Shown here piece after piece: positions 30,479 to 56,168 of a DNA stretch of 64,000 bases (its first letter is position 1; each line of letters begins with the position of its first letter). The position numbers and the translations under genes were made by a program. The notes below the pieces were generated by a model. That model was not told where the DNA came from, searched no databases, and saw only the letters and a program-made list of their open reading frames with translations. This DNA is from Planotetraspora silvatica (GTDB lineage: Bacteria > Actinomycetota > Actinomycetes > Streptosporangiales > Streptosporangiaceae): contig NZ_BOOQ01000007.1 in the NCBI RefSeq assembly GCF_016863315.1, positions 1 to 64,000 on the forward strand. Direction: 5' to 3'.

Positions 30479-31653
30479 CCGCGCTCGCCACCCGGGAACG
30501 GTCGCCGCGGCTGCTGCAGTACATCTCGTTCGTCAGCACCCTCGACCGGTTCTCGATGCCCCCGATGCTGATCGCGATGGCCCGCGACCTCGGGGCGCCG
30601 CTGTCGGCGGTGGTCAACGCGGCCGGCGTCTACTTCCTGCTGTACGGGCTCATGCAACCGCTGTGGGGGATGGTCTCCGACCGTCTGGGCCTGGTCAGGA
30701 CCATGCGGATCGCGTTGCTGCTCGCGGCGGTCTGCTCGACGGCTGCCGCCTTCGCCGAGTCGGCGCTCAGCCTCGGCGTGGCCAGGGGACTGGCGGGGGC
30801 GTGCTTCAGCGCCGCGGTCCCCGCGAGCCTGATCTACATCGGCGACACGGTTCCCGCCCACCGGCGGCAGCGGGAGGTCACCGGCCTCATGACGGGCGTG
30901 GCGCTGGGCACGGCGATCGCCTCGACGGGCGCGGGTGCGCTGGCCCAGTTCGCGAGCTGGCGGATCGCGTTCGTCCTGACCGGGGTCATCTCGCTGCTGC
31001 TCGTGTTCGCGCTCGGACGACTTCCGCAACCGGCGCTCGTCCGGGCGCACGCCAGCCTCCTCGCCCCGCTGGTCGCCGTCGCCCGCTCCGGGCCCACGCG
31101 GCTCGTGCTGGTGCTGGCTTTCGTCGAGGGAGCCGTCCTGCTCGGTTCGCTGACGTTGCTCCCCCCGGCCGTCGAGGCCGCGGGTGTGAGTGCTTCCGTC
31201 GCCGGTGCCGTCACCGCCGTGTACGGTGTTGCCGTACTGGGGTTCGCCCGTGTGGTCGGTGTGTTGTCGCGCCGCACGCACGCGTCCCGGCTCATCGCAC
31301 TCGGAGCGCTCGCCGCCGCGGCCGCATGCGGGCTGACCGCCCTGTCCCGCTCGCCGGGCATGGCACTGGTCGCCGCGGGTCTACTCGGCCTCGCCTGGGC
31401 CTCGATGCACTCGTCGTTGCAGACCTGGGCGACCGAGGTGTTGCCGGAGGCTCGTGCGACGGTCGTGTCGGCCTTCGCCGGGGCGCTGTTCCTCGGCAGT
31501 GCCGTCGCCGCGGTGCTCGTCGGGGGCCTCGCGGAGAGCCACAGGTACACGGAGATCTTCGGCCTTGCGGCGGCTCTCGCCGTACCGCTCGGCCTGTTCG
31601 CCACGCTGGGACGCAAGCGATGGATCCGACCTGAAGGAGAACCCGGTCGATGA
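30475..31653 (+). CDS. MFS transporter
   Basis: A 392-residue protein with twelve likely membrane segments, starting at ATG 30475 overlapping the upstream stop. The N-terminal half contains STLDRFSMPPMLIAMARDLG and the loop motif GMVSDRLGLVRTMRI, the MFS A-motif. It may import the pathway substrate or export an intermediate. The gene lies between the cytosolic binding-fold protein and the LacI regulator in one tightly overlapped operon. Confidence 0.87.
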   Translation: MTALATRERSPRLLQYISFVSTLDRFSMPPMLIAMARDLGAPLSAVVNAAGVYFLLYGLMQPLWGMVSDRLGLVRTMRIALLLAAVCSTAAAFAESALSLGVARGLAGACFSAAVPASLIYIGDTVPAHRRQREVTGLMTGVALGTAIASTGAGALAQFASWRIAFVLTGVISLLLVFALGRLPQPALVRAHASLLAPLVAVARSGPTRLVLVLAFVEGAVLLGSLTLLPPAVEAAGVSASVAGAVTAVYGVAVLGFARVVGVLSRRTHASRLIALGALAAAAACGLTALSRSPGMALVAAGLLGLAWASMHSSLQTWATEVLPEARATVVSAFAGALFLGSAVAAVLVGGLAESHRYTEIFGLAAALAVPLGLFATLGRKRWIRPEGEPGR

Positions 31654-32729
31654 GACCCAACCAGCCTTCGTTAACCCCTGCCGGGGAGGTCAAGCGGGCT
31701 CAGCCTCCCACCCTCCGGGACGTCGCCGAGGCGGCGGGGGTGCACGCCGCCACCGCTTCACGTGCCCTGAACCCGAGCACGCGACGGCTCGTCAGCGCGG
31801 AGACGGCCAGGCGGGTGATCAAGGCGGCCAAGACCCTCGGCTACCAGCCCAACCCCATCGCGCGGAGCCTGAAGACCGCCAAGTCGAGCACGGTCGGCCT
31901 GGTCATCCCCGACCTGACCAACCCGCTGTTCCCGCCGATCGTCCGGGGGATCGAGGACGTCCTCGAGGCCGAGGGCTTCAGCGCCTGGATCGTCAACACC
32001 GACAACGATCCGGAGCGTGAGCGCGCGCGCATCGACTCCCTTCGCTCCCGGCAGGTCGAGGGCCTCATCATCGCCACCGCACGGGTCGACCACCCGTTCC
32101 TCGAGGCGCTGCACGAGCAGGGCGTCAAGATGGTGCTCGTCAACCGGCGGGTGGAGAACCTCGAGGTCCCGTATGTGACGGCCGACGACGCCACCGGCAT
32201 CGCGCTCGCCGTACGGCATCTGGCGGATCTCGGGCACAGGCGGATCGCCCATCTGGCCGGCCCGCAGGGGACCTCCACGGGCGTCGTGAGGTCGAGGGCG
32301 TTCCGGCACGCCATCCGTGACCACGGACTGGAGGACGATCCGTCCCTCATCGTGGAATGCGCCCGCTGGAACGAGGCCGACGGGGCCACCGCGATGCGCG
32401 AACTGCTCGATCGGGACGACCGGTTCACGGCCGTCGTCGCCGGCAACGACCTGATCGCGCTCGGCTGCTACGACGTGTTCGCCGAGCGGGGCATCTCCTG
32501 CCCGGACGAGATGAGCGTGGTCGGCTTCAACGACATGCCCTTCATCGACAAGCTGCGCCCGCCGCTGACGACGGTCGGGGTGCCGCACAACGACATCGGC
32601 GCCGAGGCCGCACGCATGTTGCTCGACTGCATCGAGGAGCCTGAGCGGCGTCCGAGGTCGCTCCTCCTCCCCGTGACGATGGTCGTCCGGGACTCCACCA
32701 CCCACCCCCGCCCCCTCCCTTCGCCGTGA
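31650..32729 (+). CDS. LacI-family transcriptional regulator, probable master repressor of the catabolic island
   Basis: A 359-residue protein from ATG 31650, ATGA-coupled to the MFS gene. An N-terminal extension of about 19 residues precedes the LacI helix-turn-helix (TLRDVAEAAGVHAATASRAL) and hinge helix (PNPIARSLKT); the rest is the sugar-binding-like effector domain starting VGLVIPDLTNPLFPPIV. It is the best candidate for binding the GCAAnCGnTTGC sites at 2630, 21628, 22818, 29406 and 29486. Its last codons run into a Pro-rich tail and the stop codon TGA is supplied by the first copy of the 53-bp repeat array. Confidence 0.9.
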   Translation: MRPNQPSLTPAGEVKRAQPPTLRDVAEAAGVHAATASRALNPSTRRLVSAETARRVIKAAKTLGYQPNPIARSLKTAKSSTVGLVIPDLTNPLFPPIVRGIEDVLEAEGFSAWIVNTDNDPERERARIDSLRSRQVEGLIIATARVDHPFLEALHEQGVKMVLVNRRVENLEVPYVTADDATGIALAVRHLADLGHRRIAHLAGPQGTSTGVVRSRAFRHAIRDHGLEDDPSLIVECARWNEADGATAMRELLDRDDRFTAVVAGNDLIALGCYDVFAERGISCPDEMSVVGFNDMPFIDKLRPPLTTVGVPHNDIGAEAARMLLDCIEEPERRPRSLLLPVTMVVRDSTTHPRPLPSP

Positions 32730-32949
32730 TCATGCACACCTTCGTGAATGTGGGCTCTGACGTGCCTCCATCGCGGGCGTGATCATGCACACTTTCGGCC
32801 GCATCACCTCTGACCTGGGCCCATTTCGCGCGTGATCATGCACGGATTCGTGTGCGGCGGCGCTGACCTGGGCGTGCGCCGTGCGTGATCATGCACGGAT
32901 TCGCGGGGGAGGCCGCTCGCCTGCGGGTCCTTCTTTCGTGATCATGCAT
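32726..32949 (+). repeat. 53-bp periodic array, five copies, forward orientation
   Basis: GTGATCATGCAC starts at 32726, 32779, 32832, 32885 and (ending in T) 32938, each exactly 53 bp after the last. Within each unit a downstream TTCG and, in several, CTGACCTGGG are also conserved, while the rest drifts. The copy at 32726 contains the stop codon of the LacI gene. The same family occurs in reverse at 33968-34138 and in both orientations at 54943-55315. Confidence 0.93.
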
Positions 32950-33007: not shown

Positions 33008-33865
33008 ATGAAATATGGCGTTTTTCCCGATCTGCTACTTTTGTCCGCCCAGCCGCCTTGTGCATCTGACTACGTGAAAGCGGTGTGGTCTCCCATGGGT
33101 GACATCGGTGTGGACGGCCTGGCCGATGGGGCGGCGAAGGCGCTCCTGCTGGCCTTCGAAAAGTTGCTCACGGCAGGCTGGGGGGTGGACAGCCCGCGAG
33201 GGGAGCACGGCACCCGTCTGATCACCTCCGGCATTCCGCTGCCCCACCTGAACGGCGTGTTCACCGAGAGCCGCGACCCCGATGTCGACGAGGTCGCCGA
33301 GTTCGCCCACCGGATGACGGCGAGTGCCGTCCCGTGGAGCATCCAGGTGCGCGGCGAGCCTGCTCCAGAGCTCGTCGAGGTGGCCGCGCGTTTCGGGCTC
33401 ACCCACCGCATGCGCCTTCCGCTCATGGCGATGCCGGCGACACCGGTGGCGCTCACTTCGGGGGACCACTCGATCCGGACGGTCGACGGGAAGGATCACG
33501 ACATCTATCGCGACGCTCTCGCCGCCGGTTTCGAGGCTCCCGTGGACATCATGGCGGCGCTGGCCCAGCCGGAGATCCTGGACATGCCAGGCGCGACCGC
33601 CTATCTCGTCGAAGCGGACGGAGAACCGGTCTCAACGGGATTCGGCATCCTCGTGGGGGACCATGTCGGGGTGTTCAACGTCTCGACCCCGCCGCGCCAC
33701 CGGCGCCGCGGGTACGGCAGGGCCGCCACCGAGGTGGTCATGCGGGACGGGTTCGCCGCCGGCGCGCGTGTGGCGTTCCTTCAGGCCAGCTCCGACGGTC
33801 TGCCCCTCTACGAACTGCTCGGCTTCCGCGTCGTCGAGACCTGGACCTACTTCCAGCACGGCTGA
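33008..33865 (+). CDS. GNAT-fold N-acetyltransferase
   Basis: A frame of up to 285 residues; ATG 33095 (256 residues) is an alternative start and neither has a strong ribosome site. The C-terminal half contains the acetyl-CoA binding motif A of GNAT enzymes (VFNVSTPPRHRRRGYGRAA) and ends LLGFRVVETWTYFQ. The N-terminal half is a second, more divergent GNAT-like half. The acceptor substrate is unknown. The gene is the only one between two opposed 53-bp repeat arrays (32726-32949 and 33968-34138), which makes its link to them worth testing. Confidence 0.8.
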   Translation: MKYGVFPDLLLLSAQPPCASDYVKAVWSPMGDIGVDGLADGAAKALLLAFEKLLTAGWGVDSPRGEHGTRLITSGIPLPHLNGVFTESRDPDVDEVAEFAHRMTASAVPWSIQVRGEPAPELVEVAARFGLTHRMRLPLMAMPATPVALTSGDHSIRTVDGKDHDIYRDALAAGFEAPVDIMAALAQPEILDMPGATAYLVEADGEPVSTGFGILVGDHVGVFNVSTPPRHRRRGYGRAATEVVMRDGFAAGARVAFLQASSDGLPLYELLGFRVVETWTYFQHG

Positions 33866-33967: not shown

Positions 33968-34138
33968 GTGCATGATCGCGCATGCCGTACGGCCAGGTCG
34001 GCGTGGGTTTCCGCGAAGGTGTGCATGATCACGCGGGGGGTCCGGCCAGGTCGGAGTGGGTTTCTACGAATCTGTGCATGATCACGAACGGGGTGTGGCC
34101 AGGTCAGGGGGGATACACCCGAATCTGTGCATGATCAC
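33968..34138 (-). repeat. 53-bp periodic array, four copies, reverse orientation
   Basis: GTGCATGATCAC (reverse complement of the motif in the forward array) starts at 33968 (GTGCATGATCGC), 34021, 34074 and 34127, exactly 53 bp apart. Between copies GGCCAGGTC, GTGGGTTTC and CGAA are conserved, matching the complement of the forward units. The array closes an inverted pair around the GNAT gene. Confidence 0.93.
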
Positions 34139-52916: not shown

Positions 52917-53999
52917 ATGCCAAAGGGGCGAAAAATCCTCATCCTGAGCGCCGCCATGGGGGCCGGGCACGACGGCGTCGCCGCCGAACTCAGCCGACGG
53001 CTGGCCGCCGAGGGCGTGGAGGCCGAGGTGGTCGACATCCTGCGGCTGCTCCCGCTGGGCCTGGGATCGTCGTTGCGCCGTGGCTACGGCTGGATGATCC
53101 GTTCGGCGCCGTGGTTGTACGCCGCGATCTACAAGATCTTCTTCGTGTCGGAGAGGGCTCCGACGACCTCGCCGCTGACCCTTCTGGCCGCCGGGCCGCT
53201 CCGCGAGCTCGTCCGGCTCCGCGCCCCCGAGGCGGTCGTCTCGACGTTTCACCTGGCCGCGCAGGTCACGGGTCACCTGCGCGAACGGGACCGGCTCGCC
53301 GTACCGAGCGTGGTCATCGTCACGGACTTCGCCGCGCACCGGTTGTGGCTGCATCCCGGGAACGACAGGTACCTGTGCGGCGACGCCGTGACGGCCCTCG
53401 TCGTCGCGGAGGCGACGGGGCGGCCCGCGTTCTGTCACGCCCCGCTCGTCCGGCCCGAGTTCCTGAAGCCGGCTGCCGACATCGCGCGGGCGCGTGAGCG
53501 GCTCGGCATCCAGGAGGGCGACCGGCCGGTGCTCGTCTCCGCCGGGGCCTGGGGCGTGGGGCGGGTCGAGGAGACGGCCCGCGTCCTGGCGGCGTCCGGC
53601 CGCTATCTTCCCGTCGTCCTCTGCGGGCGGAGCGACCGTCTCCTGCGCCGCCTCCGGGACGCCGGAACGGGGCTGGCCCTCGGCTGGTGCGACGACATGG
53701 CCGACGTGTTCGCCGCCGCGTACGCGATGGTGGACAACGCGGCCGGCCTGACCTGCAGGGAGGCGTTCGCCGCCGGGGTGCCGGTCGTGTCCTACCGGCC
53801 CATCGCGGGGCACGGGCGCGACGGCGCGCTCGCCATGGCGCGGTCGGGCCTGAGCGTTTACGCGCGGAACGCGGCCGAGCTCATCGGGGCGCTCGACCGC
53901 CTCGACGGCACACCCGAGCGCGCCCGGATGATCGCCAGAGGGGCCGCGCTGTTCAGCGCTGCGTCCGCCGAATCTCTTCTGGGTCGTCCACCCGGATGA
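52917..53999 (+). CDS. MGDG-synthase/MurG-like glycosyltransferase (GT28)
   Basis: ATG 52917 behind AAGGAAGG gives 360 residues. ILILSAAMGAGHDGVAAELSRRL is the N-terminal nucleotide-binding strand with the GAGH motif of monogalactosyldiacylglycerol synthases, and the C-terminal VDNAAGLTCREAFAAGVPVVSYRP is the sugar-nucleotide binding part. This family transfers sugar to diacylglycerol or other lipids at the membrane. Its end overlaps the convergent DMT transporter gene by 47 bp. With the deacetylase it may modify an envelope glycolipid. Confidence 0.85.
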   Translation: MPKGRKILILSAAMGAGHDGVAAELSRRLAAEGVEAEVVDILRLLPLGLGSSLRRGYGWMIRSAPWLYAAIYKIFFVSERAPTTSPLTLLAAGPLRELVRLRAPEAVVSTFHLAAQVTGHLRERDRLAVPSVVIVTDFAAHRLWLHPGNDRYLCGDAVTALVVAEATGRPAFCHAPLVRPEFLKPAADIARARERLGIQEGDRPVLVSAGAWGVGRVEETARVLAASGRYLPVVLCGRSDRLLRRLRDAGTGLALGWCDDMADVFAAAYAMVDNAAGLTCREAFAAGVPVVSYRPIAGHGRDGALAMARSGLSVYARNAAELIGALDRLDGTPERARMIARGAALFSAASAESLLGRPPG

Positions 54000-54843
54000 C
54001 GTCGTGACCCAGGATGGCGGCCGAGCGCGAGAGCAGCACGCTGCCCAGGAGGATCACGCCGATTCCCACGAGTTCCGGCACCACCCAGGGGCCCGTCCTG
54101 ATGTCCTCGCCGAATAGGGCCACGCCGTAACCGGTGCTCGCCACCGGATCAGTCACGGTGAGCGCCGGCTGGACGGCGACGAGCGACGAGCGCTGCAGGG
54201 CGTTCTGCAGGAGGAAGACGCTGCACAGACCCGTGGCGACCATGGTGTAAAGGGACCACGTGGTCAGCACGGCGGGCGGATTCCTCTCCAGCACGTCGAT
54301 GGTCCGCTTCATCAGCACCGCGGTGTAGGCGAAGCTGAGCCCGGCCGCGATCCCGAGTGCCACGCCGCGAAGCCCGCTGCCGGCGACCATCCCGACCGCG
54401 ACCGCCAGTGTCACGAGCCCTGCCGTGACCGCCGCGGAGATCACCCAGCCCAGGAGGCCGGGCAGCCGGTCGGCGTTGGCGGGGGCGGCCGCGATGAGGA
54501 AGATGGCGAGGCCCACGGTCAGGGCGCCGACGGCCAGCCACGACTGCCGCCCGAGCCGGATCTTGAACATCCACGCGGCGATGAGCATCGTGACGGGCAA
54601 CTCCACGACGAGGAGGGGTTGCACGAGCGCGAGCCCGCCGAAGCCGAGCGCGGTCGCCTGGAAGAGGAAGCCGCCGATGAGGGCCAGGATGCCGAGGAGC
54701 CACGCCGGGCGCCGGATCAGGTCCCACATCAACGCCAGGCGGAACGCCTCACTCGCCGGGACGGATCGGGCGGCCTTGCGCTGCAGCACGGAGGCGATGG
54801 CGTTGCACACCGCCGCCAGAAGTGCGAGAGGAACAGCGATCAT
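53953..54843 (-). CDS. DMT/EamA-family membrane transporter
   Basis: ATG 54843 gives 296 residues; the frame further up to 54984 enters the repeat array. About nine to ten membrane segments fit the drug/metabolite transporter superfamily with its two repeated halves. The opening IAVPLALLAAVCNAIASVLQRKAAR is common in the actinobacterial members annotated DMT family transporter. The substrate is unknown. Its last 47 bp overlap the end of the glycosyltransferase gene. Confidence 0.85.
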   Translation of the reverse strand: MIAVPLALLAAVCNAIASVLQRKAARSVPASEAFRLALMWDLIRRPAWLLGILALIGGFLFQATALGFGGLALVQPLLVVELPVTMLIAAWMFKIRLGRQSWLAVGALTVGLAIFLIAAAPANADRLPGLLGWVISAAVTAGLVTLAVAVGMVAGSGLRGVALGIAAGLSFAYTAVLMKRTIDVLERNPPAVLTTWSLYTMVATGLCSVFLLQNALQRSSLVAVQPALTVTDPVASTGYGVALFGEDIRTGPWVVPELVGIGVILLGSVLLSRSAAILGHDVIRVDDPEEIRRTQR

Positions 54844-55337
54844 GACGTGGCCCCCGGATTCCGCGTCCGCTGAGGGAGCAATACCCCCCGAATGGCTCCC
54901 CCCACGAGCAGATACCCCATGACCTGCCCAAACCCCTCCGCCGTGATCATGCACAGGTTCGTGGATGTACGCACTGACCAGCACCGATGCCGAGCGTGAT
55001 CATGCACGGGTTCGTGGATATGTGCGCCGACCAGCGCGGACGGCGTTCCTGATCATGCAATGTCTCGGGTCGGTTGTACGGCGGCCGTGGGGGATTGTGA
55101 TCGAGTCGTGGAAGGCGACACCTCGGGATGGGGTGCCGCCCTCCGTGCATGATCACGACGCTCGTTCGAGCAGGTGAGAGGGTATGCCGCCGAATCTATG
55201 CATGATCACGATGCGCGTATGCGCAGGTGGGACGGTGTTCTCCCGAAAGTGTGCATGATCACGGCTGGGGTTTGGTCTGGTCGAGGGGCATGATCTCGAA
55301 CCTGTGCATGATCACGCGGGAAAGGGGGGGTGGGGGG
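54844..55337. other. 494-bp intergenic stretch occupied mostly by head-to-head 53-bp arrays
   Basis: The first 100 bp are the upstream region of the DMT transporter gene. The rest is the array at 54943-55315, followed by a 22-bp gap to the stop of the ABC permease. No gene is seen; open frames here are fragments with stops imposed by the repeats. Confidence 0.85.
54943..55315. repeat. 53-bp periodic arrays, three forward then four reverse copies
   Basis: Forward GTGATCATGCAC starts at 54943 and 54996, with CTGATCATGCAA at 55049. After an 85-bp centre, which holds a weak reverse copy near 55093, reverse GTGCATGATCAC starts at 55145, 55198 (first base A), 55251 and 55304. Every step is 53 bp. 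The forward copies again have TTCGTGGAT and CTGACCAG or CCGACCAG downstream, and the reverse copies have CGAA upstream, as at 32.7-34.1 kb. Confidence 0.93.
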
Positions 55338-56168
55338 TTAGCCGCGGGCTAGGCGGGGGAGTAGGGCCGAGGCGATGACGATCATGACGATGGCCGACAC
55401 GAGCAGTACGCCGAAGTCGAGCAGGAGCCTGGCGGAGGTGCCGACCAGCAGTCCCCGCAGGGCCTCGACCTCGTAGCTCAGCGGGTTGATGTGGTTGACC
55501 ACCTGCAGCCAGCCCGGCATGAGCTGCACGGGGTAGAGCGCGTTCGACGCGAAGAACAGCGGCATCGTGATGGCCTGCCCGATGCCCATGAGCCGGTCCC
55601 TGGACAACACCAGGCCGGCGATGGTGATCGACAGGCAGCAGAAGAACGCCGACCCCAGCAGCAGCGCGGCGACCAAAGCGATGATCTTGAGCGGGTTGGT
55701 CGCGAGATGCACGCCGAGGATCAGCGCGAGGACGAGCACGACGACGGCCTGGGCCACGGCGCGAACTCCGGCCGCGAACGCCTTGGCCCCGACCAGCGCG
55801 ATCCGCGGCGTGGGCGTCACCAGCAGCTTGGCGAGCACGCCCGCGTCGCGCTCCCAGATGATCTGGATGCCGTAGAAGATCGCGATGAACAGCGCGGACT
55901 GCGCGAGGATGCCGGGAGCCAGGAAGTCCAGGTACGGAGTCGAGCCGGTCGGGATCGCCCGGATCCGGGTGAACACCTGGCCGAACACGAGCAGCCACAG
56001 AGCGGGCTGGACGGCCCGGGTGACCAGTTCCGTCCGGTCGTGACGGAGTTTCTGCAACTCGACCAGGCAGGTCGTGGCGATCCGCGAGGCGACGGTGCGG
56101 GCCAGGGCGAGTGGTCCGGGTTCGGTCTCAGCCGACGCGGCGGGCGGTGCGACGGGCAGCGCGGACAT
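55338..56168 (-). CDS. ABC-2-type exporter permease (DrrB-like)
   Basis: A 276-residue protein starting ATG 56168 and overlapping the ATPase gene by 41 bp. About six membrane segments follow an Ala/Pro-rich N-terminus; QPALWLLVFGQVFTRIRAIPTG and NALYPVQLMPGWLQVVNHINPLSYEVEALR are typical of daunorubicin-resistance DrrB-type permeases. With the ATPase it forms an exporter of drugs, lipids or polyketides. It is the last gene of a MarR-controlled operon. Confidence 0.9.
   Translation of the reverse strand: MSALPVAPPAASAETEPGPLALARTVASRIATTCLVELQKLRHDRTELVTRAVQPALWLLVFGQVFTRIRAIPTGSTPYLDFLAPGILAQSALFIAIFYGIQIIWERDAGVLAKLLVTPTPRIALVGAKAFAAGVRAVAQAVVVLVLALILGVHLATNPLKIIALVAALLLGSAFFCCLSITIAGLVLSRDRLMGIGQAITMPLFFASNALYPVQLMPGWLQVVNHINPLSYEVEALRGLLVGTSARLLLDFGVLLVSAIVMIVIASALLPRLARG

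Follow-up and report, generated by a model that had tools for sequence, protein, structure and literature searches.

Polar arrays of a 53-bp repeat unit at gene ends in Planotetraspora and related lineages

Introduction

An intergenic region in the genome of the soil bacterium Planotetraspora silvatica carries a 53-bp repeat in two opposed sets with no gene between them, and the same repeat recurs 22 kb away, where the two sets flank an acetyltransferase-like gene. A preliminary description of the 64,000-nucleotide stretch analyzed here (the window) took the opposed pair to be the real unit, suggested comparing relatives to see whether genes enter or leave its centre, and pointed out that the region, if transcribed, could form a hairpin RNA. 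What is the unit of this repeat, then, and what might it do where it stands? Searching the available literature by sequence and by topic retrieved no paper on these arrays, and the family is apparently undescribed so far.

Results

Anatomy of the repeat

The given locus is intergenic and consists of three forward and four reverse cores at 54943-55315, all seven in 53-bp steps (Table 1), as first described; its gene-free centre also stands, with the size recomputed from 85 to 84 bp. When up to two mismatches are allowed, the window contains 27 core matches, compared with 4.0 expected and a maximum of 9 in shuffled sequences. The core of the P. silvatica genome is CACAGGTTCG. A genome-wide search (8.66 Mb) for the exact core GTGATCATGCAC found 698 copies (360 + 338) and for the reversed pattern none (0 + 0), which excludes chance. 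At the second locus, the LacI-type regulator gene at 31650-32729 takes its stop codon from the TGA of the first forward core. A relative, G001, has this gene-bracketing arrangement unchanged, so no gene traffic was seen.

Table 1. Features of the two repeat loci in the window (positions in the 64,000-nucleotide stretch)
Feature	Position	Strand	Remarks
Forward arm, second locus	32726-32949	+	5 cores
Acetyltransferase-like gene between the arms of the second locus	33095-33865	+	same arrangement in G001 C3:162594-163914
Reverse arm, second locus	33968-34138	-	4 cores; faces start of epimerase gene
EamA-like transporter gene	53953-54810	-	start 132 bp from forward arm
Unit remnant upstream of forward arm	54919-54942	+	TGACCTGCCCAAACCCCTCCGCC; second block without core, matched against unit consensus
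Forward arm, given locus	54943-55060	+	cores GTGATCATGCAC at 54943-54954, 54996-55007 and 55049-55060 (last, degenerate: CTGATCATGCAA, 2 mismatches); two 41-bp bodies
Centre between last cores of both arms	55061-55144	.	84 bp, gene-free
Reverse arm, given locus	55145-55315	-	cores 55304-55315 (first), 55251-55262, 55198-55209 (1 mismatch), 55145-55156 (last); three 41-bp bodies
C-rich tract (as read on the - strand)	55316-55337	-	from stop codon of ABC-2 gene to first core of reverse arm
ABC-2 type transporter gene	55338-56168	-	stop codon 22 bp before reverse arm

We assembled 220 arrays with 807 units (duplicates not yet removed) from the Planotetraspora genome under study and named relatives. 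An array holds 2-5 cores in the arrangement (12-bp core + 41-bp body)n + core, so that the 53-bp unit of the preliminary description holds with one refinement: it is a core plus a body, and every arm closes with a bare core. Of 590 steps, 548 measure 53 bp, 37 measure 52 bp and 5 measure 54 bp. Aligning the units yields the consensus CGTGATCATGCACAggTTCG, about 13 variable bases, YGACCTGcGc, then aC.c....C. The first core is near invariant (mean mismatches 0.12), while the last, bodiless core averages 0.81. Bodies diverge yet retain their length and a second block, YGACCTGC, at a fixed place; with the variable positions almost saturated, such retention of length points to selection on the spacing. 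Five turns of B-DNA span 53 bp, which suggests that the sites would sit on one face of the helix. Within units there is no Watson-Crick covariation (568 units), the couplings between columns being those of adjacent positions, and an RNA fold within units is therefore unsupported. The core is only partly symmetric, and with no covarying pairs the unit is not a short palindrome.

Bodies compared across loci are as dissimilar as expected (mean 0.51), so the units are not recent copies of one another. Adjacent units with identical bodies were seen at G001 C1:150746-150811, at L068 and at G003 C11:221051-221168; single-unit tandem duplication thus does occur. A-T 1434 has a subfamily of similar units.

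Placement at gene ends

Gene ends were taken from a codon-usage gene caller, which called about 85% of bases coding. Among 167 non-redundant arms, 99 start between -20 and +60 bp of a sense stop codon, whereas only 13 have an antisense start close by; in 25 arms the core's own TGA serves the gene as stop codon. This stop-codon rule has many exceptions, because an antisense gene precedes 74 of the 214 arms that have a callable upstream gene. One of them is the forward arm of the given locus, whose neighboring EamA-like gene points away. A C-rich tract commonly separates stop codon and array: 44-56% of array genes, but 15-20% of others, have CCCC in the 18 nt that follow the stop, and in array genes these 18 nt (C 0.41-0.50, G 0.18-0.23) have the C-rich, G-poor composition of a rut site. 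The array-associated genes identified so far are of mixed function (RibH, LeuA, DAHP synthase, regulators, transporters), as expected if the array is a general element. At a density of only about 40 arms per Mb, most genes end without an array.

Polarity of the arms is strict. Over 1.65 Mb, all 19 pairs of neighboring arms no more than 500 bp apart run forward then reverse, and none reverse then forward. The proposed polarity rule thus holds, and the random mixtures of orientations that would have spoken against it were not seen. Less survives of the opposed pair as the real unit: 29 of 67 arms are solitary, with no partner within 500 bp, and the adjacent gene is the better predictor of where an arm lies. 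The basic unit is a single arm that follows closely on a sense stop codon, with a C-rich tract in between; an opposed pair is in most cases the meeting of two gene ends. In two related lineages the opposed pair looks like the standing form. Lone arms alternate over long range at P 0.007 (G000 C2, G001 C3 and the window together) and P 0.09 (G001 C1); given these weak values and a G062 position list that by eye lends no support, we rejected a boundary-like alternation.

Hairpins at array-bearing gene ends

We measured the best 50-nt hairpin within 100 nt after the stop codon. Array genes average -17.4 kcal (z -0.28), with 7% below z -2, compared with -29.0 (z -2.29; 44% below -2) at convergent ends that have no array and -24.7 (z -1.35; 35% below -2) at tandem ends. 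Array-bearing gene ends therefore lack the hairpins usual at other gene ends, and no T-run was noticed in the loci inspected. A hairpin still follows 28% of lone arms, and replacement of the terminator by the array may thus not be universal.

Folded as one RNA, whole pairs reach a z of about -13 on average and -7.0 at the given locus, so the hairpin RNA of the preliminary description is energetically real. It cannot serve lone arms, however, which are barely structured (z -1.7), and no covariation within units supports it; for both reasons the hairpin seems a consequence of sequence-specific sites that face each other.

Sequence exchange between facing arms

Mirrored units of facing arms are more alike than expected (0.537 versus 0.500, sd 0.005), and facing arms thus exchange sequence; we ascribe the similarity to an exchange of the template-switch type. 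Only roughly 10 of 72 pairs are strongly mirrored, which led us to reject a general selection for complementary arms. Between one pair of convergent genes, G000 carries the arm in forward orientation (C2:346757-346926) and G001 in reverse (C1:394014-394184). The junction of this flipped array is a perfect palindrome, CACCCTCACTGCCCGTGATCATGCACGGGCAGTGAGGGTG, around a 6-base ATCATG centre, as expected of a natural template-switch footprint.

Distribution and core dialects

Most loci are syntenic between G001 and G000. In several orthologous arrays of these two genomes the gene-distal units correspond and the gene-proximal units differ, and some sites are array-free in one species. At G000 C2:27032, for example, the array provides the stop codon of the gene, and the G001 orthologue has a stop codon of its own and no array.

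A sequence-only profile applied to 141 genomes of the order detected arrays in g1, in g34 and in some species of g65; most genera of the family lack the element. The core differs between lineages. In G004 (probably P. thailandica) it reads CAGAAGTTCG, nearly all sampled first units carry CGTGATCATGCAGAAGTTCG (positions 11-13 at 100% in 52), and the last cores mostly retain GTGATCATGCAC. TTCC replaces TTCG in G062 (genus g59). Genus g65 has the core dialect CTTGTAGTTTGTCGCA, with CGTGATCTTGTAGTTTGTCGCA in the first unit; second block and 53-bp spacing are unchanged, and its last cores often abut (CGTGATCTTGCAATTGCAAGATCACG). Genus g34 (G037) carries CGTGATCTTGCANNNNNTCGCA. The 4.3-Mb genome G434, from family f30 of the same class, gave seven weaker hits to the profile (E 6e-8 to 8e-5), which possibly represent a further dialect.

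Despite their differing core dialect, 3 of 10 comparable array-bearing gene ends of g65 and g34 are also array-bearing in Planotetraspora (leuA, a 2Fe-2S subunit gene and a third gene), against a background of about 40 array-bearing gene ends among 1412 genes. Species thus share array positions, as in part do genera; the core, by contrast, changes concertedly between lineages. At loci shared between G004 and other species the bodies are too diverged for a dialect change in situ to be demonstrated unit by unit.

A suspected resemblance prompted a search of family f39 (probably Micromonosporaceae), in which 10 of 61 genomes carry an inverted-pair element, with up to 74 copies per genome. In this element a C-rich tract and GTCGATCATGGAGTTGTGG, or one of its dialects, are followed by a variable centre and then, at a near-constant 68-69 bp, by the reverse complement. 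By likeness of core, flanks and position, this inverted pair is probably a minimal relative of the arrays. An example with C- and G-rich tracts at its flanks lies at G436 C1:2607565-2607633 (GATCATGGAGTTGTGG dialects), and in some genomes (G568) the element is almost entirely palindromic around GACATGTC.

Discussion

Polarity, C-rich tract, spacing, concerted cores and the missing 3' hairpin all fit factor-bound, polar elements for termination or insulation at gene ends, a reading that we consider quite possible, if short of probable. Each arm would be a polar array of putative sites for a sequence-specific factor; lying just 3' of a gene and behind its C-rich tract, it would stop or insulate the transcription that leaves the gene. 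Two converging genes would each own one arm, which would produce the head-to-head pair. The spacing of five helical turns points to a DNA-binding protein as the reader of the sites, and transcription termination or a roadblock would be the outcome. The arrays may well mark and insulate gene ends. Stop-codon placement, the conserved positions and the lack of covariation speak for this reading as well; against it count the many exceptions to the stop-codon rule, the hairpins after some lone arms, the majority of genes that end without an array and the absence of the element from most genera of the family.

A parallel is offered by the Sal boxes of eukaryotic rDNA, which together with TTF-I are polar terminator arrays. 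In both, several copies of a factor-binding site (here putative) are directly repeated in fixed orientation downstream of a gene. The likeness is one of mechanism only, since the bacterial arrays stand at hundreds of genes instead of one and form facing pairs. Like intrinsic terminators, they directly follow the stop codon and often lie between convergent genes; unlike them, they have long, conserved, sequence-specific cores, and the first 100 nt hold no strong local hairpin. Neisserial DNA uptake sequences are comparable as 10-12-mers in hundreds of copies, with inverted pairs that act as gene-end terminators (PMC2397512) and species-specific dialects (PMC3630211). They differ from the arrays, which are phased, have a second block, stand at stop codons with no T-run noted and have no known link to DNA uptake.

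Selfish or mobilized extragenic repeats of the REP/REPIN/BIME kind, harmless after stop codons and copied by a transposase-like enzyme, are a rather unlikely alternative. The arrays do resemble such repeats, which earlier work has credited with possible roles in termination and supercoiling (PMC8049555, PMC2817692): they are intergenic, exceed 100 extragenic copies per genome, often lie near gene ends in inverted arrangement, have a patchy distribution, differ in presence or absence at orthologous sites, and include identical units in tandem as well as the subfamily of similar units in A-T 1434. Yet the unit is non-palindromic with variable bodies, and in place of single copies in alternating orientation there is a block of 3-5 direct units, spaced at 53 bp, and then the opposite block facing it. 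The unlikeness of bodies across loci, the persistence of positions between genera, and a constrained core and spacing beside saturated bodies also speak against mobile copies. The RAYT-type Y1 transposase (PF01797) is absent from four array-rich genomes (G000-G003), on which ground RAYT mobilization was rejected; G004 has four partial PF01797 (Y1_Tnp) hits.

Sites of chromosome architecture or supercoiling, such as the gyrase or nucleoid-protein anchors proposed for BIMEs, would have no direct role in termination. Convergent gene ends, where positive supercoils meet, would be apt places for them, and strict helical spacing and neighbors with no common function agree with this explanation. It requires neither the strong polarity relative to the gene nor the C-rich tract, however, and the alternation of lone arms is weak in G000 and not evident in G062; we regard it as unlikely, slightly more so than selfish repeats.

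A transcribed hairpin or 3'-UTR RNA of arm or pair as the functional form, acting in stability, processing or antisense, is improbable. Pairs fold far better than shuffled sequences, and mirrored units are sometimes common to facing arms. Against this stand the missing covariation and weak structure of lone arms, a 53-bp spacing stricter than RNA needs, mirroring in few pairs (in one case a template-switch palindrome) and the lack of a match in Rfam.

To CRISPR-like arrays of direct repeats and spacers we give almost no credence, even with a degenerate last core, orthologues that differ most in their gene-proximal units and 64 CRISPRs counted in one Planotetraspora species by DFAST (3-18 in others; PMC11431748, Table 1), because the bodies share a length and a conserved block at a fixed place, the arrays are short, exceed 100 per genome and are tied to stop codons, and the window locus has no match among phage and plasmid records. 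The published counts are probably these arrays miscalled. No cas genes were found among the neighbors identified, which are some of the neighbors only. A search of viral contigs with the Planotetraspora-dialect pattern likewise found no hit, and with both searches empty a phage, plasmid or viral origin was rejected.

The element thus departs from REP/REPIN sequences, CRISPR arrays and intrinsic terminators in defining features that were tested, and it is a realistic possibility that a factor-dependent terminator of a new kind underlies these gene-end repeats. A broader version of the gene-end reading is more doubtful: one protein would bind phased polar arrays after hundreds of genes as a form of punctuation, its specificity would have drifted between lineages (Planotetraspora, g59, g65 and g34) and dragged the sites along, and family f39 would have a minimal two-site form. 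For annotation, the arrays can provide stop codons and have probably been miscounted as CRISPRs. If they end transcription, they would constitute a factor-bound, polar bacterial terminator distinct from hairpin terminators. If one factor reads them, hundreds of sites would have shifted their core in step between related species, and the co-evolution of a protein with its genome-wide set of sites would become directly testable.
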